Below, piece by piece: positions 2,870-38,594 of a DNA stretch of 39,076 nucleotides. How positions within the stretch are numbered: position 1 is the first letter of the stretch; every line of letters begins with the position of its first letter. Below the pieces are notes generated by a model, which saw only the letters and a list, made by a program, of their open reading frames with translations, was not told where the DNA came from and ran no database searches. The position numbers were made by a program, and so were the translations under genes. This stretch comes from a virus, in IMG/VR virus record IMGVR_UViG_3300046836_000383, positions 1 to 39,076 of that record. The stretch is one strand, 5' to 3'.

Positions 2870-4800
2870 CCGGCGAGATCGACGACAGGCCGGCGAAACC
2901 GGGCCTGGTGCGGCTGCAGTTCGCGATCGACGAAGCGGAAGAGATCCCGCCGAAGCCGGAAAACATGCCGAGCGAGTCGGCCGCAAGCGAGGGACCGCCG
3001 AAGCGTGCGACGCGGGCGCGCGCCAAACCGAAAGAGGAAAGCGCGCCGCCGGCAGCCGGGGGCGGCACGGCAGCGCCGATCGATGTCGACAATCTCGGCC
3101 TGCCGCCCAATTGTCCGGTCACGCCGCTCGGGATTAATGGCACGTCGCGCTATTACCTCGATGCCGATCAGCAATTGGTCGAGCTCAAAGCCAGCGATCA
3201 CACGCGCCTCACCATCATGACGCTCTTCGGTTCCAAGACCGAATTGCTTTATGAGTTTTGGCCGCGCAAGACACTCATCAAGCGGCGCGAAGGCACTGAA
3301 TGGGAAACAACCGGCTGGCGCCCGGAGCTCGCGGCCGAGGCACTGTCGGCGGCGTGTGCGCGACTCGGCAAATGGGACAGCTATAACCGCGTGCGCGGGC
3401 CTGGCGCATGGCGCGGCGATGATGGCGCGCTGGTGCTGCATTGCGGCGATGGCGTCCTGATGAACGGCAAGGAATTCCTGCCGGGCATGATCGGCAACTA
3501 TGTTTATCCCGGTCGCGCTTCGTTGCCGCGGCCGTGGCCGTCGCCGGTGCGCGGCGGCGACGATGGGCCGGGCGGCTGGCTTGCATCGCTGCTCCGATCA
3601 TGGAATTGGAAGCGCGGCGCGCTCGATGCCGATCTTCTGCTCGGCGGCATTGGCTGCGGCATGATCGGCGGGGCGATCGATTGGCGCCCGCTCGAATGGA
3701 TCACCGGCGGCTCGGGCACCGGCAAATCGACGCTGCAGCACTTGCTCGAGCACGTCAACGGCGGCCGGCTGATCGCGGTCAGCGATCCGAGCGCCGCCGG
3801 CATCTGGCAAAAACTCGGGCACGCAACCTTGCCCGTGGCGATCGACGAGCACGAAGCCGAAGAGGACAACCGCGGCGGCAATGCGGTGCTGCGCCTCGCC
3901 CGCCTCGCCGCGTCCGGCACGATGATGTTGCGCGGCGGCGCCGATCACCAAGGCACGGAATTCACCGTGCGCTCGATGTTTTTCTTTTTCTCGATCCTCA
4001 TTCCCTCGCTGCGCCCGCAAGATCGCAATCGCATCGCCGTGCTCGAGCTCGGGCCGCTGCGCGCCGAAGCCGCGCCCGATCTCGCGCCGCAAAAGCTGCG
4101 CGAGATCGGGCGCAAGATTTTACGGCGCCTCACCGATGGATGGGAACGCTGGCCGCATGTCCATGCGGTTTTTCGCGATGCGCTGCTCGCCGAGCGTGTC
4201 GGCGCGCGGACGGCCGATGTCTATGCCGCGCTGTTGTCGTCGGCGGAACTCATCAAACACGACGACAACGGCGGCTTTGTCGACTATGCGCAAGACATCG
4301 CCTTGCAGCTGGCGCAATTCCGTGTCGGCGATGCCGGCGACGATCAGGCCGACGAAATAAGCTGCCTGCAGCATATCCTTTCAACCGGCCTGCCGCTCGA
4401 TGGTGCTGGCAAACACAGCGGCATGGAATGGATCAGGCGCGCGGCGGCCGGCATCGGTTATGAGGAAGGCACGGACCACGCGCGCGAGATCCTAGGCAAT
4501 CACGGGCTGAAAGTGCTGCGCCGCTATCGCGATGGCGAGCTCACGGTTTTTCTCGCCGTCGCGTTCTCGCACAAAGAGCTCAATCGCGCGTTCCAAGGCA
4601 CACATTGGGCCGCGCGCGCCGGCGGCACCGGCGTCTGGAAGCAAGCACTTTTGCGCTTGCCGGGTGCCGAGCCTTCAAAAGAGCCGGTTTGGTTTCGGGG
4701 CGGCACGTCGCGCGCGGTGCTGATCCCCTTCCGCGCGGTATTCCCGCCCGACGGCAACCCCGAGCGCGCCGCGCAGGAGGCCGAAAGCGATGCGCAATAA
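2866..4800 (+). CDS. DUF927-type replicative helicase/ATPase
   Basis: 644 aa. The first 80 residues are low-complexity and charged. The core resembles the DUF927 superfamily of phage and plasmid ATPases: Walker A GGSGTGKS (281-288), Walker B LPVAIDEHE (D327, E328), then a conserved stretch with MMLRGGADHQGTEF and the Phe-rich MFFFFS. These proteins accompany primases and are presumed replicative helicases. With no phage DNA polymerase nearby, the primase-ATPase pair probably recruits host polymerase. The start is fixed by the ATGA overlap with the primase. Confidence 0.8.
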   Translation: MTGEIDDRPAKPGLVRLQFAIDEAEEIPPKPENMPSESAASEGPPKRATRARAKPKEESAPPAAGGGTAAPIDVDNLGLPPNCPVTPLGINGTSRYYLDADQQLVELKASDHTRLTIMTLFGSKTELLYEFWPRKTLIKRREGTEWETTGWRPELAAEALSAACARLGKWDSYNRVRGPGAWRGDDGALVLHCGDGVLMNGKEFLPGMIGNYVYPGRASLPRPWPSPVRGGDDGPGGWLASLLRSWNWKRGALDADLLLGGIGCGMIGGAIDWRPLEWITGGSGTGKSTLQHLLEHVNGGRLIAVSDPSAAGIWQKLGHATLPVAIDEHEAEEDNRGGNAVLRLARLAASGTMMLRGGADHQGTEFTVRSMFFFFSILIPSLRPQDRNRIAVLELGPLRAEAAPDLAPQKLREIGRKILRRLTDGWERWPHVHAVFRDALLAERVGARTADVYAALLSSAELIKHDDNGGFVDYAQDIALQLAQFRVGDAGDDQADEISCLQHILSTGLPLDGAGKHSGMEWIRRAAAGIGYEEGTDHAREILGNHGLKVLRRYRDGELTVFLAVAFSHKELNRAFQGTHWAARAGGTGVWKQALLRLPGAEPSKEPVWFRGGTSRAVLIPFRAVFPPDGNPERAAQEAESDAQ

Positions 4801-5047
4801 GATACCCGCCGCGGGGCGCATGATCGAATGCGCCGTCGACTGCATCGACGAGCTCGAAAGGCAAGTGATCGCGGTTGAGACAAAACTCGCGGACTATGCC
4901 GCGACCCTCGAAAAGCAATTGCGGGCGGTCGACGCGATCCTCGCTCCCTACAAAGACGGCACCATTAACGACGCCGGCACTGCTACGAATTCATTGAATG
5001 AATTGATCGCTGTCCGAGGGAGAGCACAATGCCAATCGTCGACATGA
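4790..5047 (+). CDS. Small coiled-coil-like hypothetical protein
   Basis: 85 aa, overlapping the end of the helicase gene by 11 nt and the next gene by 19 nt, so it belongs to the same transcript. The middle (MIECAVDCIDELERQVIAVE, then TKLADYAATLEKQL) is a heptad-like amphipathic helix, suggesting a small oligomer. No family recognised. A role as helicase or primase accessory factor is only suggested by position. Confidence 0.55.
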   Translation: MRNKIPAAGRMIECAVDCIDELERQVIAVETKLADYAATLEKQLRAVDAILAPYKDGTINDAGTATNSLNELIAVRGRAQCQSST

Positions 5048-5199
5048 TCGAGCAGCTGGGACAGGCATCGAAGAAATACCTTGCCACGGAAATCGACGAC
5101 GATGGCTATATCCGCGCTTGCGTCATGGCGATCGCCGGCTGCGCGACACCCGAGGAAGCAATCAGGATGGCGGAGATTTTCGCGACGGCCGAGGATTAA
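5029..5199 (+). CDS. Small acidic hypothetical protein, last gene of replication operon
   Basis: 56 aa from ATG 5029, preceded by a strong GAGGGAGAG ribosome site (5016-5024). Helical and acidic (DMIEQLGQASKKYLATEIDD, then TPEEAIRMAEIFATAED). No family recognised. Its TAA (5197-5199) overlaps the opposing gene's TAA (5196-5198) in a shared TTAA, so two transcription units meet head-on with no space for a terminator. Confidence 0.6.
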   Translation: MPIVDMIEQLGQASKKYLATEIDDDGYIRACVMAIAGCATPEEAIRMAEIFATAED

Positions 5200-5606
5200 G
5201 GGGTCATACACTCAATGCCGAGCGCGCGCGTGTCGGGATTATCGAGAATCTTCCCGAAGGTGAACGGCATCGGTTGCGGCGCTTTCGCTGCAGGAATGGG
5301 CGGCGGCGATGTCGTCAGCGATGGCGGAATAAATAGCTTATCGAGATCGTGAGCGGAGCTCGCCGGGAATGCCGGCGGCGCGGGTTTGAGCGCGGTCGGG
5401 TCGGGCGTGTGAAGACTATCAGCGGACCACGCCTGGCGCGCGCGCTCGCCGGCTTGGGTTTCGCTTAAATGATAAGCCGTCGCCGCGTCGAGCGCGCGGT
5501 CATTGGCTTCGGCGAGCGCGTTGCCGTCAAAGGCGGCGGGCGCAGCGATGGAAGGCGTCGCGGTCGCGAGAACGGCCGCCGCAAGCAGGAAGCGATAACG
5601 AGTCAT
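5196..5606 (-). CDS. Secreted proline-rich protein carrying a copy of an ejection-protein N-terminal motif
   Basis: 136 aa with a Sec signal peptide: MTRYR, hydrophobic FLLAAAVLATATPSI and an AXA-type site near residues 21-24. There is no lipobox cysteine. The mature part has an Ala-rich helix (to about residue 60) and a Pro-rich linker (about 68-112). Residues 113-134, beginning MPFTFGKILDNPD, match the N-terminus of the virion protein at 28374 (18 of 22 identical). GAGG 6 nt before ATG supports the start. It is the last gene of a leftward small-gene unit that points away from the late genes. Predicted to be periplasmic. A lysis accessory or a superinfection-exclusion factor are both possible; neither is proven. 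Confidence 0.65.
   Translation of the reverse strand: MTRYRFLLAAAVLATATPSIAAPAAFDGNALAEANDRALDAATAYHLSETQAGERARQAWSADSLHTPDPTALKPAPPAFPASSAHDLDKLFIPPSLTTSPPPIPAAKAPQPMPFTFGKILDNPDTRALGIECMTP
5205..5270 (-). repeat. Diverged duplicate (copy B) of 66-bp motif shared with 28392-28457
   Basis: Read on the minus strand this aligns without gaps to 28392-28457, 55 of 66 bases by hand count, in the same reading frame. The strongest stretch encodes TFGKILDNPD. Here it is the C-terminus of a secreted protein; the other copy is the N-terminus of an ejection protein. Confidence 0.75.
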
Positions 5607-5620
5607 TCAGCCTCACAATT

Positions 5621-5785
5621 TCAGGATGTAGGCTCGCCGATCAGATCGAGCCGCTTCTCGATGCGCGCGAGCCGGCTCTCGATGCGGTCAACGCGATTCG
5701 ATACGCTGTCCTTCTGGCCGCTCGGCGAGGTGCGCTTACCGCACACCGCGCAAACCCGTCCGGTCTCGATCTTCTTTGGCGTCAT
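5621..5785 (-). CDS. Small CxxC protein with coiled-coil tail
   Basis: 54 aa from ATG 5785. One CAVCGK knuckle at residues 12-17 is followed by a regular charged helix (NRVDRIESRLARIEKRLDLI) that looks like a short coiled coil. Only two cysteines are present, so metal binding would need a dimer. AAGAAGGGCC lies 6-15 nt upstream, the ribosome-site context repeated through these small-gene clusters. No function assigned. Confidence 0.6.
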   Translation of the reverse strand: MTPKKIETGRVCAVCGKRTSPSGQKDSVSNRVDRIESRLARIEKRLDLIGEPTS

Positions 5786-5799
5786 ATCCCGGCCCTTCT

Positions 5800-5991
5800 T
5801 TAATCTGCCGGCCCAAGCCGACCGAGTTCGGTTTCGATCTTCAAAAGCTGTTCCTCATCCAGAAGCGCGCGAACCCGTGCCACCGTCGCCGGAGTCAAGC
5901 CTCCTTCAGTCAACATGGCCAGGAGCATCAGCTTTTGAGCGCGGACCATAAACTTGAGGCTCATGCGATCAATGTAAGTGTAGTTCGCCAT
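5800..5991 (-). CDS. Small helical hypothetical protein
   Basis: 63 aa from ATG 5991 (MANYTYIDRMSLKFMVRAQK). The frame is open further upstream, but this ATG has the AAAAGGGCC ribosome-site context 6-14 nt before it and the upstream part reads as out-of-frame Arg/Thr/Ser sequence. Predicted to be mostly helical, ending in LLDEEQLLKIETELGRLGPAD. No family recognised. Confidence 0.6.
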   Translation of the reverse strand: MANYTYIDRMSLKFMVRAQKLMLLAMLTEGGLTPATVARVRALLDEEQLLKIETELGRLGPAD

Positions 5992-6004
5992 GATCCCGGC
6001 CCTT

Positions 6005-6274
6005 TTATCGGATGAGAGCGTAGCCGTCCTCGAACGCCTTCGATGGCGACCAGGACTTGTAGCCGTCGTCGTAGACGACATAGTAGCCGGGATCGTTTTC
6101 GTCGCCCTTGAAGCGTCCGGCCCAGCCCGGCTCGGTGACGAACGGCGCGTAGCCATCGTCCTTCGGCGCGATCTTCGCCGACTTGTCCTCGTTGATCTCG
6201 ATTGCAGCGATCTTCAGCGCCCAGACTTCCTTGTGGCACTTATACCGCGGCATTTCTCTCGATGCGCCGTCCAT
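6005..6274 (-). CDS. Conserved-looking small phage protein (MPRYKCHK type)
   Basis: 89 aa with a very good ribosome site (AAGGAGA, 7 nt before ATG 6274). The sequence has a short beta-rich core: RYKCHKEVWALKIAAIEIN, then APFVTEPGWAGRF, then ENDPGYYVVYDDGYKSWSP. Small proteins with this look recur in temperate phages of GC-rich Proteobacteria, but I know of no assigned function. It is the most typical protein-like sequence in this leftward unit. Confidence 0.7.
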   Translation of the reverse strand: MDGASREMPRYKCHKEVWALKIAAIEINEDKSAKIAPKDDGYAPFVTEPGWAGRFKGDENDPGYYVVYDDGYKSWSPSKAFEDGYALIR

Positions 6275-6323
6275 AGAATCTCTCCTTCAGCTTGGTTTGC
6301 AGGCTACTTTGACTGACCGAGGA

Positions 6324-6455
6324 TCATCGATGCGGCCAGCGAAGCGCCTCGGCCTTCCGTCGCTCTCTGCGGTTCACCGGCTCATCTTCAGCCGCGAACA
6401 TCTCGCGCATCTGCTCCAAAGCCTCGGGCTTCAGCGCGTCTTTGATCATTTCCAT
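6324..6455 (-). CDS. Very small charged helical protein
   Basis: 43 aa from ATG 6455 (MEMIKDALKPEALEQMREMF through NRRERRKAEALRW). GAAAGGGCC lies 9-17 nt upstream, the same ribosome-site motif as its neighbours. Highly charged single-helix protein; no function assigned. Forty-nine nt separate it from the next gene. Confidence 0.5.
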   Translation of the reverse strand: MEMIKDALKPEALEQMREMFAAEDEPVNRRERRKAEALRWPHR

Positions 6456-6471
6456 GGATCGGGCGGCCCTT

Positions 6472-6588
6472 TCAGCGGTAGATGACATAGGAAAGCGCAT
6501 ACAGCCAGCCGCAGAGAGCGATCCAGCGCCAGATACTAACGTCGTCCCAAAGGCCGACTCGCAGCGCCTCGCGTAGATGCTTCCACAC
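6472..6588 (-). CDS. Very small single-pass membrane protein
   Basis: 38 aa from a GTG at 6588. The open frame extends upstream, but AAGAAGGGCC sits 6-15 nt before this GTG. The N-terminus is charged (WKHLREALRVGLWDD); the C-terminal half, SIWRWIALCGWLYALSYVIY, is one Trp/Tyr-rich transmembrane helix. Candidates are a tiny holin-like or immunity peptide, but position in a leftward early unit gives no support for lysis. First gene of the leftward unit ending at 5196. Confidence 0.45.
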   Translation of the reverse strand: MWKHLREALRVGLWDDVSIWRWIALCGWLYALSYVIYR

Positions 6589-6714
6589 AGCCCGGCCCTT
6601 CTTTAATCGCTCATTGCTGCACCCTAGCAAAGACGCGGCGCGACACAAAATCGGTCTTGGTGATAGTGCTATAGTGCGTCTGGGCAGGGCCGGCGCCGCA
6701 TCGCTAAAACTGGA

Positions 6715-6753
6715 CAGACAAACGCGGCGAGCAATTTTCACCGCTCGCCGCGT
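6715..6753 (-). terminator. Hairpin terminator ending the ardC leftward unit
   Basis: A perfect 11-bp stem (6722-6732 with 6743-6753, ACGCGGCGAGC type) with a 10-nt loop. On the minus strand it is followed by a short T-rich run (TTGTCTGT). It separates the units 8293-6783 and 6588-5196. The T tract is weak, so efficiency is uncertain. Confidence 0.55.
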
Positions 6754-6782
6754 CCTTGTCGGTTTCGTCGCCCCATTCTCGT

Positions 6783-6905
6783 TTATGAGATTTCGCGGCC
6801 GTTTTCATCGTAGTGCAACGGTTGCTTAGGCCAAAAACCCTCAGGCTGGCCGTCGCTATAGGTGCATCCTACGATGTCGTTAACGCGGCGCGCGATGCGC
6901 CGCAT
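6783..6905 (-). CDS. Very small hypothetical protein
   Basis: 40 aa from ATG 6905 (MRRIARRVNDIVGCTYSDGQ, then PEGFWPKQPLHYDENGREIS). It overlaps the 3' end of the CxxC gene by 37 nt in another frame and has no clear ribosome site. The composition is protein-like and the upstream frame closes with a TGA 27 nt before the start. It may instead be the shifted C-terminal part of a once longer CxxC protein. Confidence 0.45.
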   Translation of the reverse strand: MRRIARRVNDIVGCTYSDGQPEGFWPKQPLHYDENGREIS

Positions 6906-6979
6906 TCGGCATAGGCATCGCGGCGCACATCATCCGAGCCGCATTCGTCGCAAACAATTTTGATGCGCTTCCCGGTCAT
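6869..6979 (-). CDS. Very small CxxC zinc-knuckle protein
   Basis: 36 aa. Its ATG at 6979 overlaps the TGA of the upstream gene (ATGA). Residues 7-20 (KIVCDECGSDDVRRDA) are the start of a familiar phage zinc-ribbon type; such proteins usually continue with a second CxxC, which is missing here. It ends after LTTS. Either a minimal one-knuckle form or a truncated product, since a second small ORF covers the next 85 nt in another frame. Confidence 0.5.
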   Translation of the reverse strand: MTGKRIKIVCDECGSDDVRRDAYAECGASRAALTTS

Positions 6980-7302
6980 GCCGCGCGCTCCAAAACCGCA
7001 AGCGCGTGCGCAATGTCGCCACGCTGCAAGGCCGCGCGCGCTTTGTCGGCAATCGCGCGCCAATTCGGCCGGGCGATCGTCGACGGGGTTGCGACGCGCT
7101 CGGCGCCGTTCCATTCCACGCGGCCGGCAATGACCGCGGCGCCGGTCACTTGTTCAACAAGCCGTTTGCCGTTGTCGGGGTTGATCGGTTTAGACTTGTC
7201 GGACCAAAACGACATACGGAGTTTTTCGCCGGTCGACATTTCGGCGACATAAACCGGCGCCGGATAACGACCTTTGCCTTTGAACGATGATAATTTCGCC
7301 AC
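6976..7302 (-). CDS. Hypothetical phage protein downstream of ardC
   Basis: 108 aa. A ribosome site (GGCAGGAA) lies 6-13 nt before ATG 7302. The N-terminal half is beta-rich (APVYVAEMSTGEKLRMSFWS, then KRLVEQVTGAAVIAGRVEWN); the C-terminal half is helical (ADKARAALQRGDIAHALAVL). Co-directional with ardC but separated from it by tandem hairpins. I do not recognise a family; position suggests a role linked to the ArdC module. Confidence 0.6.
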   Translation of the reverse strand: MAKLSSFKGKGRYPAPVYVAEMSTGEKLRMSFWSDKSKPINPDNGKRLVEQVTGAAVIAGRVEWNGAERVATPSTIARPNWRAIADKARAALQRGDIAHALAVLERAA

Positions 7303-7355
7303 GGTAAATTCCTGCCTTCCCTAATCGAGCGTTGCACCATTGCGCGGCTCGCCAC

Positions 7356-7398
7356 GGCGCCGGCTCGAGGCCGGCGCCCTAGCGAGCATCGCGCTAGG
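7356..7398. other. Tandem GC hairpins at the end of ardC
   Basis: First hairpin: GGCGCCGGC (7356-7364), 5-nt loop, GCCGGCGCC (7370-7378). Second: CCTAGCG (7378-7384), 7-nt loop, CGCTAGG (7392-7398), overlapping the ardC stop codon. Neither has a T-run, so they look like RNA-stability or attenuation structures between ardC and the next gene. Confidence 0.45.
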
Positions 7399-8293
7399 CC
7401 GCGATCGCGGCGGGTTGCTGCAGCTGCGCGAGATAGGTGCAAGCCTGCTCGGCTTTGCTGGCGGCCGTGAAGATCGCGCGTTTATCGTTCTTCAAAACGC
7501 TTAGCCACGTTTTGATGTAGGCCGCATGATCCGCGCGCGGCGCATTGCGCAGCATGAGATCAGCGGAAAGGAACGCGGCGCCGAGCTCGGCGATCAATTC
7601 TTCAAAAGCGTATGCCTTGTCGCCAAACCGGCCGGAAAAATCGCGGTTGCAGCGGTTTTTATCGCCGGTCCAATGCGTCAATTCATGGCATAGGGTCGAG
7701 TAGTAAGTCTCTTGCGCGGTTGATGTCGTCGACCCGGTAAAGTGCCCGCGTTCGGGCATTTGGATATAGTCAGCGCTTGGAATGTAGAACGCGCGGCCGC
7801 CGCCATGCTTCACAACGGCGCCCGTGTTCGCCACGAAAGCATCAACCGCGGCGACCGGCTCAAAACACGGTTGCAGCGGCGCCGGCGCCGATGGTGCCGC
7901 TTCCCAATTGTCGACCTGGCCGGCATGAAACACGCTATAGGCGCGTGCCATCATGCGCGCGCGCGGCTCTTCACCATCGGCCGTGGCGCCGGCGCCGTCT
8001 TTTGGGGTCCATTGTTTCCAAACGATGATGGTCGAGCCCTTTTCGCCCTTGCGGACTTGGGCGCCGGCTTCCTGCCAAGCCTTGTAGGTTGCCCAATACG
8101 GCGTAGGCGCATAGGCCGCCCACAACAGCGGGACATTGATGCCGCGATAAGGCCGCTTTGTAATCGCATTGAGCGGCCGCGCGAGATCACCGCCGGCGCC
8201 GAATGCATTGCTCCACGGTTTTTCCCATGACAGCGCTTGATCGATCGCGGCGACAATTTTGTCTGTTACATGCTGGTAAACGTCGAATGCCAT
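7394..8293 (-). CDS. ardC: ArdC-like antirestriction protein (ssDNA-binding domain plus metallopeptidase-like domain)
   Basis: 299 aa. Residues 5-125 match the ArdC N-terminal ssDNA-binding domain: VYQHVTDKIVAAIDQ, W.KPW, NAITKRPYRGINVPLLW, then GAQVRKGEKGSTIIVW. Residues 150-295 match the zincin-like C-terminal domain: HELTHW (H203, E204, H207) and the downstream glutamate helix EELIAELGAAFL. ArdC of plasmid pSa protects incoming DNA from type I restriction. AGAGGA lies 6-11 nt before ATG 8293. The promoter region holds operator-like palindromes of both families found in this phage, so expression is likely linked to the lysogeny switch. An insertion around residues 98-145 (Ala/Pro-rich) looks like a linker. 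Confidence 0.85.
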   Translation of the reverse strand: MAFDVYQHVTDKIVAAIDQALSWEKPWSNAFGAGGDLARPLNAITKRPYRGINVPLLWAAYAPTPYWATYKAWQEAGAQVRKGEKGSTIIVWKQWTPKDGAGATADGEEPRARMMARAYSVFHAGQVDNWEAAPSAPAPLQPCFEPVAAVDAFVANTGAVVKHGGGRAFYIPSADYIQMPERGHFTGSTTSTAQETYYSTLCHELTHWTGDKNRCNRDFSGRFGDKAYAFEELIAELGAAFLSADLMLRNAPRADHAAYIKTWLSVLKNDKRAIFTAASKAEQACTYLAQLQQPAAIAA

Positions 8294-8311
8294 GATTTCC
8301 TCTCACTGGTT

Positions 8312-8397
8312 ATAAGCAACTATTGCTTATATTGACGCGCAAGTTTTCCAAATTGGGTTGTTGCGCCGAGCCACTTTTATAAGCAATTATTGCTTAT
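8312..8397. promoter_or_regulatory. Composite ardC operator: two AAGCAA palindromes flanking one ACCCAA palindrome
   Basis: ATAAGCAACTATTGCTTAT (8312-8330) and ATAAGCAATTATTGCTTAT (8379-8397) are 8-3-8 palindromes. Between them lies TTCCAAATTGGGT (8346-8358), 11 of 13 positions of the ACCCAA-N-TTGGGT operator. Centres are 31 and 36 bp apart, about three helical turns each. The stretch is AT-rich and directly upstream of ardC. Confidence 0.7.
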
Positions 8398-8499
8398 CGT
8401 CAAGCGTTAAAATTCGATGGCGTCGTTATTTTTCATTCTTTCAGTTGATTGGTGCGAATCCCTGGCGCCGATCGCGTGCGGCTTTATGGCTTGAATTTT

Positions 8500-8512
8500 A
8501 CCCAATTTGGGC
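8500..8512. promoter_or_regulatory. ACCCAA-N-TTGGGT family operator ahead of the terminase genes
   Basis: ACCCAATTTGGGC, 12 of 13 positions of the perfect site at 621. It lies in the non-coding region between ardC and the terminase small subunit, so it could control rightward late transcription. I see no convincing -35/-10 pair around it. Confidence 0.55.
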
Positions 8513-8581
8513 AAAAGCTGGAATCCTTCCGATTTTAGAGGTCCGCGCGCTATGTCCCTCGCCCGTTGTGTTCACGGGATA

Positions 8582-8611
8582 CCCTCCCGCGCCCTCCCGC
8601 TGCCCTCCCGC
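8582..8611 (+). repeat. Three CCCTCCCGC direct repeats (iteron-like)
   Basis: CCCTCCCGC occurs at 8582, 8592 and 8603, spaced 10 and 11 bp, i.e. on one helical face. The CCTCCCG core appears again at 8646 and, inverted, at 8751 and 8827. Spacing and location before the terminase small subunit suggest a protein-binding array (packaging or replication signal). Confidence 0.55.
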
Positions 8612-8643
8612 GCTATGCCTAAAAAACCCTTGTTTTCTGCCGA

Positions 8644-8757
8644 TCCTCCCGAAATCCCGAAATCCCGGCGGTTTTTACGTGTGCGCGCGTGCGCATGCGC
8701 GCGCACCCGCGCCCGTGTGACGTAGAGAGAGACCGGGATTTCGGGATTTCGGGAGGA
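8644..8757. repeat. Large inverted repeat, 25-bp perfect arms, with inner GC hairpin
   Basis: Arms at 8644-8668 and 8733-8757 are perfect reverse complements and contain CGAAATCC twice in tandem. The 64-nt interior holds GTGCGCGC (8681-8688) pairing with GCGCGCAC (8699-8706). No coding frame crosses it convincingly. About 110 bp upstream of the small terminase gene; a pac/cos-like site, origin or regulatory RNA are the options. Confidence 0.65.
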
Positions 8758-8866
8758 ATGTATAAATAGGAGCGCCATTTCAACGTTTTATCCGAGCACG
8801 TTCGCATCCCGATTGCATCCCGGTCCGGGAGGCCGTTGAAATCATTAAATATTGGGAATTAACCGA

Positions 8867-9448
8867 ATGGCTGAAAGCGCAAAAGGCACGAAAACCGCGG
8901 TTGATCTCGTCATGGAACAAGCTGAGCCGCTGCTAGAAGAGCCGGAACAGCTGGATTTGCTCGGATTGCCTGTCCGGGCGACCGTCGACGGGGCGCCGCG
9001 CGGACCTGGCCGGCCGATCGGCGCGCGCAATAAGCGCACGGTTGAATTCGCGAAATTCCTGCTAAGCCGCTATGCGTCGCCGCTCGAGGTATTGGCGCAA
9101 ATGGCGGTTGCGCCGGCCGCTGAATTGGCGCGCGCGCTCAGCTGCAGCGCGCTCGAGGCATTCCAAGAAAAGCGACACGCGGCGATAGCACTCGCGCCGT
9201 ATTTGCATGAGCGCCAGCCGATCGCCGTGAATCTCACTGATCGCAAGGTTGTTTATCTGCACATTGAGGTCGGCGATAAGCCGGCCGAGCTCGGCGACGA
9301 CGAAGCGCTGACGATCGAAGGCAAGATCGTGGGAAATCAAATAGTTAGCAGCGATCAATCCGCGCCAGTTACACGCGAGGAAGTTACACGCCATGAGCAA
9401 GTCATTGATAACACAAGCGAAAAAGCGACATTGCGCGAGGATTGCTAA
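8867..9448 (+). CDS. terS: Terminase small subunit (probable)
   Basis: 193 aa from ATG 8867 (GGGA 9 nt upstream); a TTG at 8852 is the alternative. The N-terminus is acidic and Leu-rich. Residues 42-60 (GAPRGPGRPIGARNKRTVEF) carry the basic GRP.GARNKRT stretch typical of small proteins that precede large terminase in alphaproteobacterial phages. Next come two helical segments (SPLEVLAQMAVAPAAELARA and FQEKRHAAIALAPYLHERQP), then a conserved strand RKVVYLHIEVGD. The C-terminal 50 residues are acidic and disordered-looking. It would recognise phage DNA and load TerL; the repeat-rich DNA just upstream is the natural candidate target. Confidence 0.7.
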   Translation: MAESAKGTKTAVDLVMEQAEPLLEEPEQLDLLGLPVRATVDGAPRGPGRPIGARNKRTVEFAKFLLSRYASPLEVLAQMAVAPAAELARALSCSALEAFQEKRHAAIALAPYLHERQPIAVNLTDRKVVYLHIEVGDKPAELGDDEALTIEGKIVGNQIVSSDQSAPVTREEVTRHEQVIDNTSEKATLREDC

Positions 9449-9665
9449 TCCTCTGCGCGGCGCCAGCTGGCCTTGCCCTTGCCGCGCCTCGATCGCGGTG
9501 GATCCGCGCAAACCGCGCGAGCATTTTCGTCCGCCGACCCGGCACCCCGGTTTGCGGTCGCGCCGGCCTCGCGCCTCCGTGCGAGCGACCCTTGACGCGC
9601 ATGCCCGGCCTTTCGGTCATCGCCGCAATCTTGCCAAAGCCCATCGGGCCGGGGGGCGGGGGTGA
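9393..9665 (+). CDS. Doubtful basic ORF between the terminase genes
   Basis: 90 aa. In favour: GAGGAAG 9-15 nt before ATG 9393, and a stop overlapping the TerL GTG start as GTGA, the coupling style used throughout this phage. Against: the product is almost entirely Arg/Pro/His (SRRPRASVRA, HRRNLAKAHRA), as expected from a non-coding frame of GC-rich DNA. The only other content of 9449-9661 is GC-rich sequence. I leave it as possible. Confidence 0.3.
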   Translation: MSKSLITQAKKRHCARIANPLRGASWPCPCRASIAVDPRKPREHFRPPTRHPGLRSRRPRASVRATLDAHARPFGHRRNLAKAHRAGGRG

Positions 9666-11134
9666 GCGCGAATGTCTCGATCCACTGGCGCCCGCCGGGG
9701 CCGGTGGCGCGCGCCTTCATGCACTCGACCGCGCGCATCCAGGCGATCATGGGTCCGATCGGGTCGGGGAAAACGCAAAGCATCTTTACGAAGATCGTCA
9801 TGCTCGGCGGCCAGCAAGCGCGCTCGCCGATCGACGGCCGCCGGCACTTCCGCATCTGCGTCGTGCGCGACACCTACCGGCGGCTTTGGGAAACCACGAT
9901 CCCGTCCTGGCACAAGATCGTGCCGAAGGATGCGTGCGAATGGTCCGGCGGCTTCGGCGATCCGGCAAAAGCGCTGGTGACGATGGCGCTCGGCGAGAAT
10001 GACGTGCTCGAGCTCGGGCTCGACTTCATCGCGATCGGCGATCAAAGCGCCGAGGATGTCATGCGCGGCTATGAGCCGACCGGGCTCTACCTCAACGAAG
10101 CCGATTTGATGGCCGAGGATGTGCTGACGCACGGCTTGCCGCGCGTCGGTCGTTACCCGTCGATGAAGCATGGCGGTCCGACCTGGCGCGGCGTGCTGAT
10201 GGATTTCAACGCGCCCGATACCGAGAGTTGGGTTTACAAGCGCATCGTCGAAGCCTCGGAAACCGATCACTCGATCGCGTTCTTTCGCCAACCATCGGCC
10301 TTGGTCGAAGGCGCCGAGAACATCGCGAATTTGCCCGAGGGCTATTACGACGAGCAGATCCGCGGGCAACCCGATTGGTGGGTGCGCCGCTTCATCCGCA
10401 ACGAGTTCGGTTTCTCGCGCGACGGCCGCCCGGTCTATCCCGAATGGATCGATAGCGAGCATGTCGCGCCTAAGCCGCTGCGGCCGGTCCCGGGCCTGGC
10501 GCTGCATATCGGACTCGATGCCGGGTTATCGCCGGCGGCGGTGTTCGCGCAGCACATGCCGGGCGGGCAATGGCGCGTCTATGATGAGCTCGTCGCCGAG
10601 CATGGCACCGGCGCGATGCGTTTCGCCGACATGCTGGCGCAGCGCCTCCATGAACGCTTCCCGGCGCATCGCGTGATTCACGCCTGGGCCGATCCGAGCG
10701 CGGCCTACGGCGTCGACAAGGACGCCGGCGAGAAATCGTGGATCGAGATTATCGGCGCGCAAGCCGCCATTGACATCGCGGCAGCACCGACCAATGCGCT
10801 GATCCCGCGCCTCGAGGCGGTGCGCCGGCCGCTGGCGCGCAAGATCGATGGCCTGCCCGGCTTCCTTCTGTCGCCGAATTGCGTCGTGCTGCGCAAAGGC
10901 TTCAACAGCACCTACCGCTATCGCAAGCTCAACGTGCCGCAGATCGAGCAATTCAAGCTCGAGCCCGACAAGAACGATGCCAGCCATCCGCACGATGCGT
11001 TGCAATACGCGCTCTGCGGCGGCGGCGAGGATTACGAAACCGCCGAGCGACAGCGCGATCTCCACAACCCCGCCGATCTGCCGCGCCGTGTCGCCGATTA
11101 CGATAACGATCCGTTGTCGGCGTTTTCGTCATGA
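9662..11134 (+). CDS. terL: Terminase large subunit
   Basis: 490 aa from GTG 9662 after a G-rich ribosome site. The ATPase domain has Walker A GPIGSGKT (31-38) and Walker B LYLNEAD (N145, E146, D148). The nuclease domain shows the RNase H-like acidic residues in HIGLDAG (D286) and WADPSAA (D344), then HDALQYAL (H444, D445) near the C-terminus. It pumps phage DNA into proheads and cuts concatemers. Length and motif order fit TerL proteins of podo- and siphoviruses. The stop overlaps the next start (ATGA). Confidence 0.93.
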   Translation: MSANVSIHWRPPGPVARAFMHSTARIQAIMGPIGSGKTQSIFTKIVMLGGQQARSPIDGRRHFRICVVRDTYRRLWETTIPSWHKIVPKDACEWSGGFGDPAKALVTMALGENDVLELGLDFIAIGDQSAEDVMRGYEPTGLYLNEADLMAEDVLTHGLPRVGRYPSMKHGGPTWRGVLMDFNAPDTESWVYKRIVEASETDHSIAFFRQPSALVEGAENIANLPEGYYDEQIRGQPDWWVRRFIRNEFGFSRDGRPVYPEWIDSEHVAPKPLRPVPGLALHIGLDAGLSPAAVFAQHMPGGQWRVYDELVAEHGTGAMRFADMLAQRLHERFPAHRVIHAWADPSAAYGVDKDAGEKSWIEIIGAQAAIDIAAAPTNALIPRLEAVRRPLARKIDGLPGFLLSPNCVVLRKGFNSTYRYRKLNVPQIEQFKLEPDKNDASHPHDALQYALCGGGEDYETAERQRDLHNPADLPRRVADYDNDPLSAFSS

Positions 11135-11358: not shown

Positions 11359-11417
11359 TTGTTTTCACGCCTGACGGCACAGAACGAAATGCGGAAGCAA
11401 AGAGCATCCCGAGTTGA
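11355..11417 (+). pseudogene. Truncated small gene interrupted by the direct repeat
   Basis: An ORF starting at 11355 with ATGA coupling opens well (MIVFTPDGTERNAEAK) but hits TGA after 20 codons, four codons into the 83-bp repeat that begins at 11401. The repeat carries the 3' end of another gene in a different frame. I read this as the 5' stub of a gene broken when the repeat copy arrived. Confidence 0.5.
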
Positions 11418-11483
11418 ACGACGAAGAGATTGAGCGGCGCATCGACAATGCGCTCAGCGACCACCTGTAAGGAAACGGAAGCC
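11401..11483 (+). repeat. 83-bp direct repeat, copy 1
   Basis: Aligned by eye with 13441-13523, this copy differs at one base (A at 11418, C at 13458). It carries the last 23 codons and stop of the gene at 13295-13510 plus the AAGGAAACGGAAGCC ribosome-site leader, which here serves the gene at 11484. Confidence 0.9.
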
Positions 11484-13294: not shown

Positions 13295-13510
13295 ATGCAG
13301 TTTCCACCATCAACACCGCGGCCGGAATTGGATCACCTGATGGCATTGGCCGTCAGGAAGTATCACGCGATGTCTCCTGAAGAACGCGCAGAGATGCATC
13401 GCGCTCAGCGGCGGTCGTGGCTACGCGGAGAGATTGGGCTAGAGCATCCCGAGTTGACCGACGAAGAGATTGAGCGGCGCATCGACAATGCGCTCAGCGA
13501 CCACCTGTAA
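13295..13510 (+). CDS. Small charged phage protein; intact parent of the truncated repeat copy
   Basis: 71 aa from ATG 13295 (AGGGAG 6-11 nt upstream). Sequence includes MSPEERAEMHRAQRRSWLR and ELTDEEIERRIDNAL, a helical charged protein. Its last 23 codons and following leader are duplicated at 11401-11483, where only the tail survives. The copy here is complete, so the copy at 11401 is the remnant. Confidence 0.6.
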   Translation: MQFPPSTPRPELDHLMALAVRKYHAMSPEERAEMHRAQRRSWLRGEIGLEHPELTDEEIERRIDNALSDHL

Positions 13511-13523
13511 GGAAACGGAAGCC
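13441..13523 (+). repeat. 83-bp direct repeat, copy 2
   Basis: Second copy, inside and just after the gene at 13295-13510. The distance to copy 1 is 2,040 bp. Homologous recombination between the copies would delete eight or so small genes. Confidence 0.9.
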
Positions 13524-24961: not shown

Positions 24962-25495
24962 ATGACGGGCATCGAGGAAGTCGCTGCGGTCGCCGCGATC
25001 GCGGGCACGGCGGTATCGGTCGGCTCGACGATCTACCAGGCGGTCAATCAGCAACAGGCCGGGCAGCAAGCGAAATCGGCCAGCGAATACAACGCGGCGA
25101 CAACCGAGACATCGGCGGCGAGCGACGTGGCGCAAGCCGATCAGGACATGCGGCGCAAGATCGCCTCGGAACAGGCGGCCTATGGCGGCTCGGGGGCCAC
25201 GCTCGAGGGCTCGCCGCTTCTGGTGATGTCCGACCAGGCATCGCAAGGCGAGCTCAATAAGCGGCTGATCCAGTACCGCGCCGATGTCCAGGCGACACAG
25301 CAACTCTCTGCCGGCCAAACGGCGGCGACACAAGGCACGGCGCAAGCCGGCGCCACGATCCTGACTGGCGCGACCAAGCTCTACGACGCGACCAAACCGC
25401 TGTTGAAGAGCAGCAACTCCAACAGCGGACCGACGCCGGCGCAGATCGAGCAAGATCCTTTCGCGAGTTACGGCAGTCCGAGTAGCGGCGAATGA
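24962..25495 (+). CDS. Internal virion (core) protein, T7 gp14-like
   Basis: 177 aa. N-terminal hydrophobic helix (AAVAAIAGTAVSVGSTIYQA), then QQQAGQQAKSASEYNA, and a conserved MRRKIASEQAAYGGSGATLE with GSPLLVM. This YGGSG.TLEGSPL pattern is typical of gp14-like core proteins, which enter the outer membrane at ejection. The C-terminus is Ser/Thr/Ala-rich. Stop overlaps the next potential ATG at 25492. Confidence 0.78.
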   Translation: MTGIEEVAAVAAIAGTAVSVGSTIYQAVNQQQAGQQAKSASEYNAATTETSAASDVAQADQDMRRKIASEQAAYGGSGATLEGSPLLVMSDQASQGELNKRLIQYRADVQATQQLSAGQTAATQGTAQAGATILTGATKLYDATKPLLKSSNSNSGPTPAQIEQDPFASYGSPSSGE

Positions 25496-26076: not shown

Positions 26077-28110
26077 ATGGCGAAGATCCCGTTCTTAACG
26101 GCCGATCAGACGGCGGGCAGCGGCGCCAATCTGCCGACATCGCTCGGCGCGCAGCCGGCGGCGGGTATCGCTTCCGCCGCCGGCCAGGTTGCGAGCACTT
26201 ACGACCAATTCGAGCAGCAATATGTCCAAGCGCGGCGCCTCTCGGCGGCGTCCGAGCTCAACGCCGAATCCTATCAGCGGCTCGGCGATGCCGAATTCAA
26301 GGCATCGCAGATCCCCGATCGCCAGCAAGCGATCGCGCAATTCCAATCCGACAGCGCCGCGATCAAGAGCGATATGGGCGACCGGATTGTCGACCCGCTG
26401 CTCAAAGCGAATTGGCAATCGAATTTCGATCAGCGCGCGATCACGGGCGAGTTGCAGACCGGGCATGCCGCCTTCGGCCTCGAGAGCGACGCGCAGCAAG
26501 CCAATCTCGCGTCGCGTATGGAGCAATATTCGCACCAATACGCGCAAGCCGGCAGTGACATCGAGCGCGCGCAAGTAGCCGACACCGCGCAAGAGGACGT
26601 GAAGGCGATCACCGCGGGGCATTGGATTTCGCCGCTGCAAGGCGAAGAGCATATCGAGAAATTCCGCCAGCGCGGCGACGCCGCGCTCGCGCGGCGCGAC
26701 ATCGATGCCGATCCCGCCGTCGCGGTCAAGAAACTGCAAGACCCGACGAATTATCCGTGGCTCGACGAGTATCGCCGCGAAATGATGCTCGGCGTCGCCG
26801 AGAGCCGCGCCCGCGCGCGCAGCGACGAAGCGAAAGGCGTCGCGCAGCAAAACTACGAAGATAACTACATGTCGATCATGACGACCGGCGAGCCGGTCGC
26901 GCCGCAATCGCGCGCGTCTTTGGTGGGCATGTTCGGCGCGACGCGCGGCAACAAGATGGCGAGCGATCTCGACGACGCGCAAAGCATCTTCGGCTTCACA
27001 ACCAAAACGAAAATGACGACGCCGGACGAAGATCGCGCGCTGCTCGAGGCACACAAGCCGCAAGGGCCGGGCTTCGCGGACCAACAGAAGGTTTACAACA
27101 CGCTCCTGCAAGTGATTCAGCAAAAGCAGAAAGCCTTGCAGGAAGATCCGGCGCAGTTCGCCTACCAGGCCGCGCCCGAGCTCGCCCAGGCGATGCAGGC
27201 GGCGCAGAAAGACCCGTCGAAAATGCCGACAGCCGAGGCGATGCTCAATAGCGTTTACGATCGCCTCGGCCAGCCGAGCTACAACCGCCCGGTCATGTCG
27301 AAGGCACAAGCCGGCGGCCTCGCGCAAACCATCATGGCGGCGCCGGCCGATCAGCGCGCGCAGACTTTAACGCAGATGGGCGACGCCTATGGCACGGCGT
27401 GGCCGCAAGTGATGCGCGACATGGTGAAGGACGGCAAGCTGCCGACCGCTTACGAAGTGCTGCCGGCGATTCCCAATCCGGGCGATCGCATCACCTACGC
27501 CAATGCGCTCGGCGACGGCAAGCGCGCGCTGCAGGACATGCTCGATCCCGAGGATAAGAAAACCATCGATAACGAGATTCGCATAAACGACACGCTTCGA
27601 TCGCTGCGCCAATCCGCGGCGTTCAACGATCGCGGCGGCAAGAAAGCGGACGACATCGAGGAAGCCGCGCGCATGCTGGCCTATGCCAAGATGCAGCAAG
27701 GCGGCATCAAAGCGGCGAACGCGGCCGACAGCGCGGTGCAGGCGATCGTCGGCGATAAATTCGATTTCGTCGGCGACGGCATGGTGCGCGCACCCAAGGG
27801 CTTGCACGATCAGGTCGCGGCCTACGGCAATCAGGTGTTGAACACGCTCAAGCCCGAGGATCTGCCGGTGCCGGCCAATCCCGCCGGCAAGAAGCTGACC
27901 GACGCGCAGCTGCGGCAAACCTATCTCGATTCGATCCGCCGCAAAGGCGTGTGGGTCACGAACGAAAACGGCGACGGCATGGTGATGCTCGACGAGCAGC
28001 GCAACCCGGTGATGCTGAAAAACGGGCAGCGGCTCGAGGCACCGTTTAGCGCCGCGCGCGCCATGCCGCTGCCGACCGTGACGCCCGAGCAAAATTTCAT
28101 CGCGCCTTAG
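26077..28110 (+). CDS. Internal virion/ejection protein (T7 gp15 position)
   Basis: 677 aa, one base after the previous stop. Long, Ala/Gln/Asp-rich helical protein; N-terminal ASTYDQFEQQYVQARRLSAA, SELNAESYQRLGDAEFKAS, and a repeated DPL.K..W pattern match core proteins of T7-like virions. Middle regions contain KLQDPTNYPWLDEYRREMML. Such proteins form the periplasmic tube during DNA ejection. No enzymatic motif seen. Confidence 0.75.
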   Translation: MAKIPFLTADQTAGSGANLPTSLGAQPAAGIASAAGQVASTYDQFEQQYVQARRLSAASELNAESYQRLGDAEFKASQIPDRQQAIAQFQSDSAAIKSDMGDRIVDPLLKANWQSNFDQRAITGELQTGHAAFGLESDAQQANLASRMEQYSHQYAQAGSDIERAQVADTAQEDVKAITAGHWISPLQGEEHIEKFRQRGDAALARRDIDADPAVAVKKLQDPTNYPWLDEYRREMMLGVAESRARARSDEAKGVAQQNYEDNYMSIMTTGEPVAPQSRASLVGMFGATRGNKMASDLDDAQSIFGFTTKTKMTTPDEDRALLEAHKPQGPGFADQQKVYNTLLQVIQQKQKALQEDPAQFAYQAAPELAQAMQAAQKDPSKMPTAEAMLNSVYDRLGQPSYNRPVMSKAQAGGLAQTIMAAPADQRAQTLTQMGDAYGTAWPQVMRDMVKDGKLPTAYEVLPAIPNPGDRITYANALGDGKRALQDMLDPEDKKTIDNEIRINDTLRSLRQSAAFNDRGGKKADDIEEAARMLAYAKMQQGGIKAANAADSAVQAIVGDKFDFVGDGMVRAPKGLHDQVAAYGNQVLNTLKPEDLPVPANPAGKKLTDAQLRQTYLDSIRRKGVWVTNENGDGMVMLDEQRNPVMLKNGQRLEAPFSAARAMPLPTVTPEQNFIAP

Positions 28111-28373: not shown

Positions 28374-30191
28374 ATGCCCGACACCGCCGGCATGCCGATC
28401 ACCTTCGGGAAGATCCTCGATAATCCCGATGCGCGCGCCGAGGGCATCGAGGGCATGTCGTCGTCGCCGTGGGATACGGTCGATTGGCTGTCGACCGCGA
28501 AATCGGCGCAGCGCGTGATGGAAGGATCGATGGCAGCGAGCGGTCTATCGCCGTTCGGCGAGCAATTGAATTTGCCGCCGCCGCTGTCGCCCGAGGAAGC
28601 GAATTCGCGCTATGGAATTCCCGGCGCGCTCGATTTCAAAGACCCGGTGCAGGATTTCGTCGCGCAGAATATCTACAACGACAAGCGCGAAGAGCTCTAT
28701 CGCGCCGACGCGGCGAGCCGCCGGCCGCCGGGCGCCTTGTCGTCGCTCGCCACCTTCGGCGCGAATTTCGTCGGGCAAACGCTCGATCCGGTCAATCTCG
28801 CGGCGAGCTTCATCCCTGTGGTCGGCGAAGCGCGCTATGCGTCATGGCTGGCGAGCGCGGGCGAAGCCGCGGGCGCGGTCGGGCGCGCCGGCGTGCGGGC
28901 TGGGGTGGGTGCGGCGCGCGGCGTCGTCGGGCAAGCGGCGCTCGAGCCGCTGCAGATCGCGCAAGCGCATTCCCTGCAGGACGATTACGGCGCGTCCGAT
29001 GTCATGCTCGATCTCGCCTATGGCGGGCTGCTCGGCGGCGGGCTGCATTTGGGGCTCGGCCCGCTCGGCGATCCGGTCACGGAGCGATTCCGCCAAAGCG
29101 GCGCGGCGCGCATCGCCGACGCGGACCCGGCGGCGCGTGAATCGGCCTTGCGCACCGCCCTGGCGCAAACCGCCGAGGATCAACCCGTCGAAGTGGTGCC
29201 GAGCTTCCTCACGTCGCGCATGCCGATCGTCACGGAATTCGCGCCGCGCGCAGCGACGGAGTTGCCGGTGCTCGACACCGACAGCTTGCGGGCGCTCGGC
29301 GAGCGCACACAGCTGACGCAGCGCAGCCGCGAGCTCGACGAGTTCATGAAAGGGCTCGATGTCTCGCCCGATGCGCCTGCGGCGCGCGACACGCTCGCCC
29401 GGCTCGAAACCGTCGAGCGCAATCTCGCCTCGCCCGATCTGACGCCCGAGGCGCAGCGGGACTTGCTCAAGCGCCGCGACGAGCTCCTGGGCGACACGAC
29501 ACCCGAGGCGCTGCAGGAGACAGCGGCGCCGCTCGAGATGCGGCGCTCGGCGCGGGCACAGCAAGAGCAGATCGCGGCGCGGCTGGCCGACATCGAAAAA
29601 GAAGCGCGCGGCAAGGCGGCCGATGTCGCGCTGTCGCCGCTGCCCAAGGTCGCGCCGCCCGCCAATTCCGAGGGGGGGCGGCCGCCACGCGCCGATGAGG
29701 TCGCGCACGCGACGGCGCTCGGCGCCGAGCGCGATGCACGGCTGCAGCGCGCGGCGGAATTGATGCAGCCGACAGCGCCGGCGCGGATGGCGGCCGGGCG
29801 ACAGCTGCCGCTCGACGATCAAAAGACGAGCCGCGTGGCCGATGCCGTCGCGGCCAACCCGCAGCCGGTCGACACTGCCGCGTTGCGCGCCGACATCGCC
29901 GAGCGGCAAAAAACGGCAGAGAGCGTTTCCCGTGAAACGCCCCAAATTGGAAAATCAGAAACCCAAGACGCGGAAGCGCCAGAAACAGCCGCCAAGGGGG
30001 CACCGGCCGAGCATCCACCCGAGGGGGGCCCCGCGGTAGGTGCCGCTGAGCAGCCCGCACCGCGCGTCCCTGAGGGTGTCGGCGCGGCGGAAGCGAAAGA
30101 GCTCGGTTTTACCGAAGCGGCCGAAGATCGCGCCCAAGCCGAAGCGGCGGCGCGTGTGTGGGAGGAAGGCGCGACATGCCTCGGAGGCTGA
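28374..30191 (+). CDS. Large virion/ejection protein with duplicated N-terminal motif
   Basis: 605 aa from ATG 28374, two bp after the Acb2-like gene. Residues 7-28 (starting MPITFGKILDNPD) are the second copy of the motif at the C-terminus of the secreted protein 5196-5606. Residues 110-230 hold Gly/Ala-rich hydrophobic stretches (VNLAASFIPVVGEARYASWL; then AGVGAARGVVGQAALEP, MLDLAYGGLLGGGLHLG), consistent with membrane insertion during ejection. Residues 290-460 are charged coiled coil. The C-terminus is Ala/Pro/Glu-rich. No transglycosylase motif seen. Belongs to the core/ejection cassette. Confidence 0.7.
   Translation: MPDTAGMPITFGKILDNPDARAEGIEGMSSSPWDTVDWLSTAKSAQRVMEGSMAASGLSPFGEQLNLPPPLSPEEANSRYGIPGALDFKDPVQDFVAQNIYNDKREELYRADAASRRPPGALSSLATFGANFVGQTLDPVNLAASFIPVVGEARYASWLASAGEAAGAVGRAGVRAGVGAARGVVGQAALEPLQIAQAHSLQDDYGASDVMLDLAYGGLLGGGLHLGLGPLGDPVTERFRQSGAARIADADPAARESALRTALAQTAEDQPVEVVPSFLTSRMPIVTEFAPRAATELPVLDTDSLRALGERTQLTQRSRELDEFMKGLDVSPDAPAARDTLARLETVERNLASPDLTPEAQRDLLKRRDELLGDTTPEALQETAAPLEMRRSARAQQEQIAARLADIEKEARGKAADVALSPLPKVAPPANSEGGRPPRADEVAHATALGAERDARLQRAAELMQPTAPARMAAGRQLPLDDQKTSRVADAVAANPQPVDTAALRADIAERQKTAESVSRETPQIGKSETQDAEAPETAAKGAPAEHPPEGGPAVGAAEQPAPRVPEGVGAAEAKELGFTEAAEDRAQAEAAARVWEEGATCLGG
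28392..28457 (+). repeat. 66-bp motif, copy A, shared with 5205-5270
   Basis: Encodes residues 7-28 of the ejection protein, aligned without gaps to copy B on the opposite strand 23 kb away (55 of 66 bases; 18 of 22 residues). Confidence 0.75.
29925..29952 (+). promoter_or_regulatory. parS-like palindrome beside a weak ACCCAA-type site, inside coding DNA
   Basis: GTTTCCCGTGAAAC (29925-29938) differs at one position from the chromosomal ParB site core GTTTCACGTGAAAC. It is followed at 29940-29952 by CCCCAAATTGGAA, 10 of 13 positions of the phage operator. Both lie in the disordered tail of the ejection protein and encode VSRETPQIGK. Either could be chance. Confidence 0.3.
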
Positions 30192-34898: not shown

Positions 34899-35128
34899 AA
34901 TAGGCGACGTTACACTTGACAGGTCGCGGACGGAGAGAAGAAGCGCGGGCGGGCTGATAGACACCGGAAGCATCATCGGCGCGGGACAAACGAGTCGGCC
35001 CAATTGGACCTGCCGTTTGAGTCTTTTTGGAATCCGAATCGACCCCCATAAGTAACAAAATTTTACCGCTAATCTGGTAAAATCCCTTGACAAGGGGCTC
35101 GATTCGAGTCCCTTGGGGGAAGGTAATT
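34899..35128. other. Intergenic region after the late genes with an inverted repeat
   Basis: ATTTTACC (35060-35067) and GGTAAAAT (35076-35083) are perfect 8-bp arms with an 8-nt spacer; the A/T runs on both sides could make this a bidirectional terminator or an operator. TTGACA (35087-35092) is a perfect -35 hexamer, but I find no good -10 at the right distance. No gene. Confidence 0.4.
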
Positions 35129-35398
35129 ATGGCATCATATCGCATCGAACTACTCTTTGACCGACGGGCGGACGGGTACTACCACGTCCACAGTCCCGCT
35201 TTGCCTGGGCTACAACTTGGCGGCATGGACCTGAAGGCGATCTGCGCTGATATCCCGGCCGTCGTCCGCGATTTGCTTTGGGAGGCCAAGCGAATTCGCG
35301 CCGATGAGGTAACTTGGCTACCAACTATTGAGGACGTTCAGAAGCAGTTTCCTGGAGAACGTGAAGTTTATCTCGTGAGCGCGAAGGACGCGGCTTAG
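35129..35398 (+). CDS. HicB-like antitoxin
   Basis: 89 aa from ATG 35129 (GGGGGAAGG upstream). Residues 2-60 (YRIELLFDRRADGYYHVHSP, ALPGLQLGGMDLKAICADIP) match the partial RNase H-like fold of HicB/DUF1902 proteins: a beta-hairpin with G.Y.v.sP.LPG, then a helix. The C-terminus has no obvious DNA-binding HTH. It would neutralise the partner encoded 4 bp downstream. This cassette lies after the fibre genes, where phages often carry extra genes. Confidence 0.7.
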   Translation: MASYRIELLFDRRADGYYHVHSPALPGLQLGGMDLKAICADIPAVVRDLLWEAKRIRADEVTWLPTIEDVQKQFPGEREVYLVSAKDAA

Positions 35399-35402
35399 TG
35401 GT

Positions 35403-35630
35403 ATGCCTCCGTCTTTCCTGCTCACCGAGTATGTCGAGCGGCAATTGACCCGGCGTAAGTGCCACAAGGTTGGCACTTACGCTACGGCGTCCCGATGGAT
35501 GACTAAACTCAACTATCCTTTCACTGTTCCGAACCAATGCGATCAGCAAACATTCGACGTGATCTTGTCGGCGATCTATCCGCATCTTGGAGATGATGAT
35601 TCGGCCGCGTCGCCGCCGATTGCGCCATAA
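35403..35630 (+). CDS. Possible HicA-like toxin
   Basis: 75 aa, starting 4 bp after the HicB-like gene. The product is basic in its first half (ERQLTRRKCHKVGTYATASR) and contains YPFTVPNQCDQQTFDVILSA, similar to the FTVP.....L...TL..IL end of HicA double-stranded-RNA-binding-like toxins. The usual G.SH(H) catalytic histidine motif is replaced by GTYATASRW, so toxicity is doubtful. Alternative: unrelated partner of a HicB-like regulator. Confidence 0.5.
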   Translation: MPPSFLLTEYVERQLTRRKCHKVGTYATASRWMTKLNYPFTVPNQCDQQTFDVILSAIYPHLGDDDSAASPPIAP

Positions 35631-36664: not shown

Positions 36665-36704
36665 AATCAGCGGTTACAACGCGTTGAAATCGTTAGATAG
36701 TGGC

Positions 36705-36752
36705 GAGACTGCAAATCCTCGCACCCCGGTTCGATTCCGGGTCCGGCCTCCA
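36705..36752 (+). other. attP-like site: 3' end of a tRNA-Cys gene
   Basis: Shows an anticodon loop CTGCAAA (GCA, Cys; 36709-36715), a perfect T-arm CCCGG-TTCGATT-CCGGG (36725-36741), acceptor strand TCCGGCC, discriminator T and CCA (36750-36752). No 5' half (GGCCGGA-type acceptor strand, D-arm) is present upstream, and the anticodon stem lacks one base compared with a regular arm, so it is not a complete tRNA gene. Phages using a tRNA as attB carry this 3' segment to rebuild the gene. The integrase lies 470 bp away. Confidence 0.8.
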
Positions 36753-36942: not shown

Positions 36943-36965
36943 CGCCAACCGGGAGAGCCTTCGTA

Positions 36966-38593: not shown

Positions 38594-38594
38594 G

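Follow-up and report, generated by a model that had tools for sequence, protein, structure and literature searches.

The virus record IMGVR_UViG_3300046836_000383, analyzed over its entire 39,076 nucleotides (hereafter, the window), carries a small leftward gene (5196-5606, minus strand) encoding a protein with export features whose C-terminus copies the N-terminal arm of an internal virion (ejection) protein encoded in the same genome (28374-30191, plus strand). The identity between the two 22-residue segments is far above chance. We tentatively interpret the small protein as an exported docking-peptide mimic that could interfere with the ejection conduit of an incoming phage, a reading that we regard as possible while falling short of probable.

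A small exported-type protein ending in a virion-protein arm

The product of the small gene, as characterized by coding score, hydropathy, structure prediction and a scan for signal-like starts, comprises 136 aa and begins MTRYRFLLAAAVLATATPSIAAPAAF..., with a Sec-type signal-peptide-like segment (MTRYRFLLAAAVLATATPSIAAPA/AF) spanning approximately residues 1-25. This segment is followed by a helix (residues 28-63), a proline-rich disordered linker (26% Pro in residues 60-112) and a C-terminal tail, MPFTFGKILDNPDTRALGIECMTP, that contains the arm copy, in agreement with the architecture of signal peptide, Pro-rich linker and C-terminal motif put forward in a preliminary description of this DNA. 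The gene starts 14 bases past the preceding leftward gene, and its own frame is coding-like (+0.15 nats per codon), with every other frame scoring negative. A simple, composition-based signal-peptide rule applied to 259 window open reading frames (ORFs) was passed by only two of them, 5196-5606 and an apparent shadow ORF (background ORFs, 1.3%), leaving 5196-5606 as the sole plausible window gene with a signal-like start. Hydropathy analysis revealed one hydrophobic stretch, located at the N-terminus, and the sole Cys is residue 133, with no lipobox of the type found in the Ltp exclusion lipoproteins. AlphaFold2, run without relatives, predicted a single confident helix at residues 28-63 and no confident structure for the rest of the protein, the tail included.

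No family match was identified for this product in Pfam, PHROGs, NCBIfam (above cut-off) or PADLOC, and it does not fall within the SieA family of exclusion proteins; nor were homologs detected among phages, plasmids or IMG/VR. Weak partial matches in the genomes of relatives lacked the tail and were judged to be due to chance. On the sequence evidence, 5196-5606 appears to be a real gene whose product would be exported.

The arm copy is encoded by a 66-base segment (5205-5270, minus strand; MPFTFGKILDNPDTRALGIECM) that aligns without gaps to positions 28392-28457 (plus strand), encoding residues 7-28 of the ejection protein as counted from ATG 28374 (MPITFGKILDNPDARAEGIEGM). The two segments share 18 of 22 residues and 55 of 66 bases, exactly the figures given in the preliminary description, and the match is recovered with E-values of 1e-14 (blastn, within the window) and 2e-7 (blastp, against all window ORFs). 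Similarity stops sharply on both sides, with its onset falling exactly at ATG 28392. The DNA identity claimed earlier holds. The accompanying argument from silent sites is weak: the pair uses the same codon for 14 shared residues out of 18, where the codon bias of the genome by itself predicts 10.5 +/- 2.0. The copy is open, in frame and free of stops, and retains a 10-residue core (TFGKILDNPD) intact. Comparison of the pair yields a dN of 0.114 and a dS of 0.547 (dN/dS ~0.2). When all 11 changes were simulated as neutral, a stop-free copy with at most four residue changes was obtained in 1% of cases, whereas treating only the seven non-silent changes as neutral gave four or fewer residue changes in 30% of cases. 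Common descent of the two segments is clear at the protein level and a DNA-level copy is plausible, whereas selection on the copy is suggested without being proven.

The preliminary description had also pointed out that a motif mobile among many unrelated phage genes would undermine its interpretation, and no such distribution was seen in IMG/VR: a DNA pattern for FGKILDNPD plus a following D or E had no match there. A looser DNA pattern had six IMG/VR matches, none with the remaining motif, which were attributed to chance; the most similar of them is antisense to the start of a methylase gene.

The shared 66 bases might also act as DNA or RNA, for instance as an antisense to the start of the ejection message produced by rightward transcription into 5205-5270. 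The rightward genes end at 5199, no terminator-like site was found between them and the copy, and the 55 matching bases could allow pairing around ATG 28392. However, both genes read the segment in the same sense and frame, a coincidence with a chance of 1 in 6; its changes are concentrated in a few codons such that the protein core is kept; and the gene that contains the copy is coding-like in composition and has export features. We therefore deem a role as a nucleic-acid element highly improbable.

The ejection-protein arm among related phages

The second partner in the pair is assigned as an internal virion protein (605 aa from ATG 28374 or 599 aa from ATG 28392) on the basis of its matches to phrog_3003 and phrog_342, its location between other internal virion genes and the homology of its conserved core to proteins annotated as internal virion proteins in Pelagibacter phages. 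Many relatives begin with MPIYT, MPFYT, MPGIW or MANIGFG, and ATG 28392 could hence be the true start. Homologs were gathered from phage records, genomes and IMG/VR; alignment queries recovered relatives that initial queries with a single protein had missed. In alignment A3, every homolog retains a Cys (C602) that lies only a few residues from the C-terminus.

The N-termini of these homologs consist of a short arm, a less conserved linker and then the conserved core. Pairwise identity in the FG subfamily (19 sequences) is 63% over residues 1-22, 40% over residues 46-75 and 60-66% in the core, and in the TIY subfamily (6 sequences) it is 87% for the arm, 43% for the linker stretch and 71-83% for the core; a third subfamily (5 sequences) is too uniform to tell arm from linker conservation. 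A conserved arm beside a variable stretch is as expected of a docking peptide carried on a linker, and AlphaFold2 modeling of the window protein with 35 sequences assigns pLDDT values below 50 to almost all of residues 1-28, consistent with a disordered arm.

The window arm aligns in register with the arms of the FG subfamily (FG...N..A...GYD), as ITFGkILDNPDARAEG against igFG.ldvNktAketG, with 2 of 3000 shuffles scoring as well, a figure whose true significance is somewhat lower because this subfamily was picked after inspection. The small-protein tail matches the same arms more poorly (101 of 3000 shuffles as good). Neither an all-family arm profile nor pairwise alignment with the relatives L050 and G309 matched the window arm, and its homology to the family arms, as a diverged member, is accordingly likely but not certain. 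By eye, two of the four differing residues (I9 and A20) carry the family residue in the virion protein and not in the small protein. These residues, the poorer match of the tail and the status of the predicted disordered window arm as a diverged family member indicate that copying probably ran from the virion protein to the small protein, with 28392-28457 as the likely source.

To evaluate recurrence of the pair, the DNA around ~170 homologs was inspected (96 including the window and some duplicate loci, plus 74; 15 contigs whole or nearly so). In this DNA, the ejection protein of the window is the only one whose N-terminus occurs a second time, and the check for co-occurrence across phages proposed in the preliminary description gave no second case; none of the relatives sampled exceeds ~50% identity to the window phage, the searches may omit very near records, and the uniqueness of the pair is only as good as this sampling. 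The phrog_3003 internal virion proteins of Pelagibacter phages and of Pseudomonas phage vB_PaeP_Tr60_Ab31 illustrate this pattern, being homologs of the 28374 protein that, unlike it, have no second arm copy in the DNA examined.

The conservation of arms beside variable linkers, and the placement of the segment as an end piece within a predicted disordered region of both proteins, would also suit a shared docking tag with some other role, in which the arm is a short linear motif for a host envelope or phage partner and the small protein helps, for example, in conduit assembly or release, or acts on the lysogen envelope. A general tag system is nonetheless at odds with the finding that no other protein of the window phage or its relatives was seen to carry the arm. 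Moreover, within each subfamily the arm changes together with its ejection protein, a pattern pointing to a phage partner over a fixed host partner. Overall, we consider the shared tag unlikely.

Phage identity, virion genes and the leftward accessory block

The marker families identified in the window (portal PF12236, capsid PF19821, large terminase phrog_2 and tail protein phrog_376), together with the homologs found, place it as a podovirus grouping with Pelagibacter phages, vB_PaeP_Tr60_Ab31, Vibrio phage 1.182.O and, more remotely, phiV10. Three further internal virion proteins are possible partners of the arm: a gp14-like protein (24962-25495, plus strand; phrog_418, E 4.8e-13), a protein of the ejection block supported by its position and by homologs in 40 loci of relatives (26077-28110, plus strand) and a large protein immediately past the 28374 gene (30195-32651, plus strand; phrog_684, E 1.2e-147). 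Searches of solved structures returned nothing useful. The tail-fiber gene (32655-34451) contains imperfect direct repeats (~75%) at 33296-33507, and adjoining ORFs of 103 and 75 aa at 35087-35630 resemble a HicB/HicA-type pair by eye, the 103-aa ORF having no PHROGs match.

An integrase gene (37220-38629), an excisionase-like gene (36924-37223) and a tRNA-Cys 3' end serving as putative attP identify the phage, on its gene content, as temperate. The tRNA-Cys 3' end (~36700-36752) was recognized by eye beside the excisionase-like and integrase genes and is the likely attP; ARAGORN reported no complete tRNA, and the remnant yielded no host. The position of attP internal to the record suggests that the record derives from the free form of the phage, not from a prophage integrated in a host.

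The small gene belongs to a leftward block (5196-8293, minus strand) made up of 5196-5606, 5621-5785, ~5800-5993, 6005-6274, 6324-6500, ~6472-6741, 6976-7302 and 7394-8293. Two relatives with common neighbor gene order, G305 (45% identity to the window for the primase, 42% for the primase-helicase and 47% for the large terminase) and G309 (46, 43 and 45%, respectively), have gaps of ~490 and ~310 bases, respectively, between the primase-helicase and small-terminase genes and no leftward block in either gap. Judged by this absence from syntenic genomes, the block is accessory. Accessory blocks are the usual site of moron, exclusion and counter-defense genes, and the last gene of this block (7394-8293, minus strand) encodes an ArdC-like anti-restriction protein with ArdcN and zincin-like metallopeptidase domains (PF08401, E 2.7e-33; PF18818, E 3.1e-50; phrog_7245, E 8.9e-83). 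The likely beneficiary of this protein is phage DNA entering the cell at the start of infection, and not exclusion, a point in favor of the shared-tag explanation discussed above. A 114-bp imperfect inverted repeat (77%) at 8644-8757, in a low-GC stretch between the ArdC and small-terminase genes, is possibly a control region of divergent operons.

A possible exported decoy of the ejection conduit

Ejection proteins act in the periplasm. This site of action, the predicted disorder of the ejection-protein arm and the export features of the small protein form the basis of a working model in which the 5196-5606 product would be exported via the Sec pathway and would display its arm copy at the end of a disordered proline-rich linker. 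The copy could then take the periplasmic site of the arm on the gp14-like protein, on the 26077 or 30195 product, or in the arm's own oligomer, and the occupied site would hinder conduit assembly by a superinfecting phage of the same type. By analogy with T7, where gp14 is believed to stabilize a flexible region at the N-terminus of gp15 (PMC8954989), the gp14-like protein is a candidate arm partner. In this model it is inferred that the protein is in fact exported, that it binds a conduit partner and excludes other phages, and that the lysogen expresses it. In its fullest form, this model has a temperate phage shielding the lysogen or infected cell with an exported decoy derived from its own ejection arm, that is, with a self-derived, own-kind-specific periplasmic peptide inhibitor of the injection conduit, and in this form we hold it with added reserve.

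Several observations weigh against the decoy model. The dN/dS of ~0.2 rests on 11 changes, and the observed pattern would be common (30%) if just the non-silent changes were neutral. The pair is unseen in a second phage, and selection to keep it is thus not visible across lineages. A scan of 4800-9700 for sigma-70 promoters and terminators found nothing above shuffles. Lastly, the same genome contains an 83-bp direct repeat (11401-11483 and 13441-13523, 98.8% identical) that takes in the final 22 codons and stop of the ORF that ends at 13510, along with the ribosome site following them. Its copy at 11401 is an orphan with no in-frame start codon, directly before ATG 11484, whose gene may use the ribosome site of that copy. 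This gene-end duplication looks functionless, and short ectopic copies hence arise in this lineage; the tail of the 5196-5606 product could be an older one.

Under such a scenario, an unrelated gene for a small exported protein acquired 66 bases of the ejection gene at its 3' end, in place of its original C-terminus, and the acquired piece persists without a function of its own. The orphan duplication at 11401, a silent-site agreement weakly above the expectation from codon bias, with selection on the copy not proven, and an arrangement common to no relative examined all fit a recombination relic. Nevertheless, the copy, although older than that duplication (83% identity), is uninterrupted, in frame and intact in its core; the simulations with all changes neutral gave so few residue changes without a stop in 1% of cases; and it spans just the arm, beginning at an arm Met that may be the first residue of the virion protein. 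We view a functionless relic as a somewhat doubtful explanation. The exported mimic proposed in the preliminary description is upheld in part, by the family of the ejection protein, the export features and the position of the gene near an anti-restriction gene in an accessory block, and is countered by the lack of recurrence of the pair and by the relic-like duplication.

Known exclusion proteins provide partial parallels. P22, a temperate podovirus, encodes the envelope protein SieA, which acts through the ejection proteins gp16 and gp20 to block injection (PMC10883804), and the window protein would likewise target an ejection-protein conduit; it differs from SieA in that it matches no sequence family and has a single signal-like segment, at its N-terminus. 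Lipoproteins of the Ltp type are exported and bind to the tape-measure protein (PMC3952083), with the mature part of Ltp from Streptococcus thermophilus phage TP-J34 interacting with the tape measure protein of the incoming phage and excluding superinfection. Whereas Ltp is a lipoprotein with target-interacting repeat domains (PMC3952083), the window protein lacks a lipobox Cys and, where Ltp has a binding domain, carries a copy of part of the presumed target machinery. HK97 gp15 is also a prophage envelope protein acting on the injection machinery, but it is a predicted inner-membrane protein of a long-tailed phage for which no mimicry is described (PMC10883804). Our literature search found no paper on an exclusion protein that copies a segment of an ejection protein.

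Known exclusion proteins have been identified by phenotype, not by design, and, to our knowledge, little is understood of how the ejection proteins of short-tailed phages locate one another in the periplasm. If the decoy model is correct, the copied arm would mark a docking site of the conduit and provide a peptide with which to probe it, and exporting a piece of the phage's own injection machine would constitute a simple route to evolving exclusion. Prophages would then be worth searching for small exported proteins that repeat the ends of ejection proteins.
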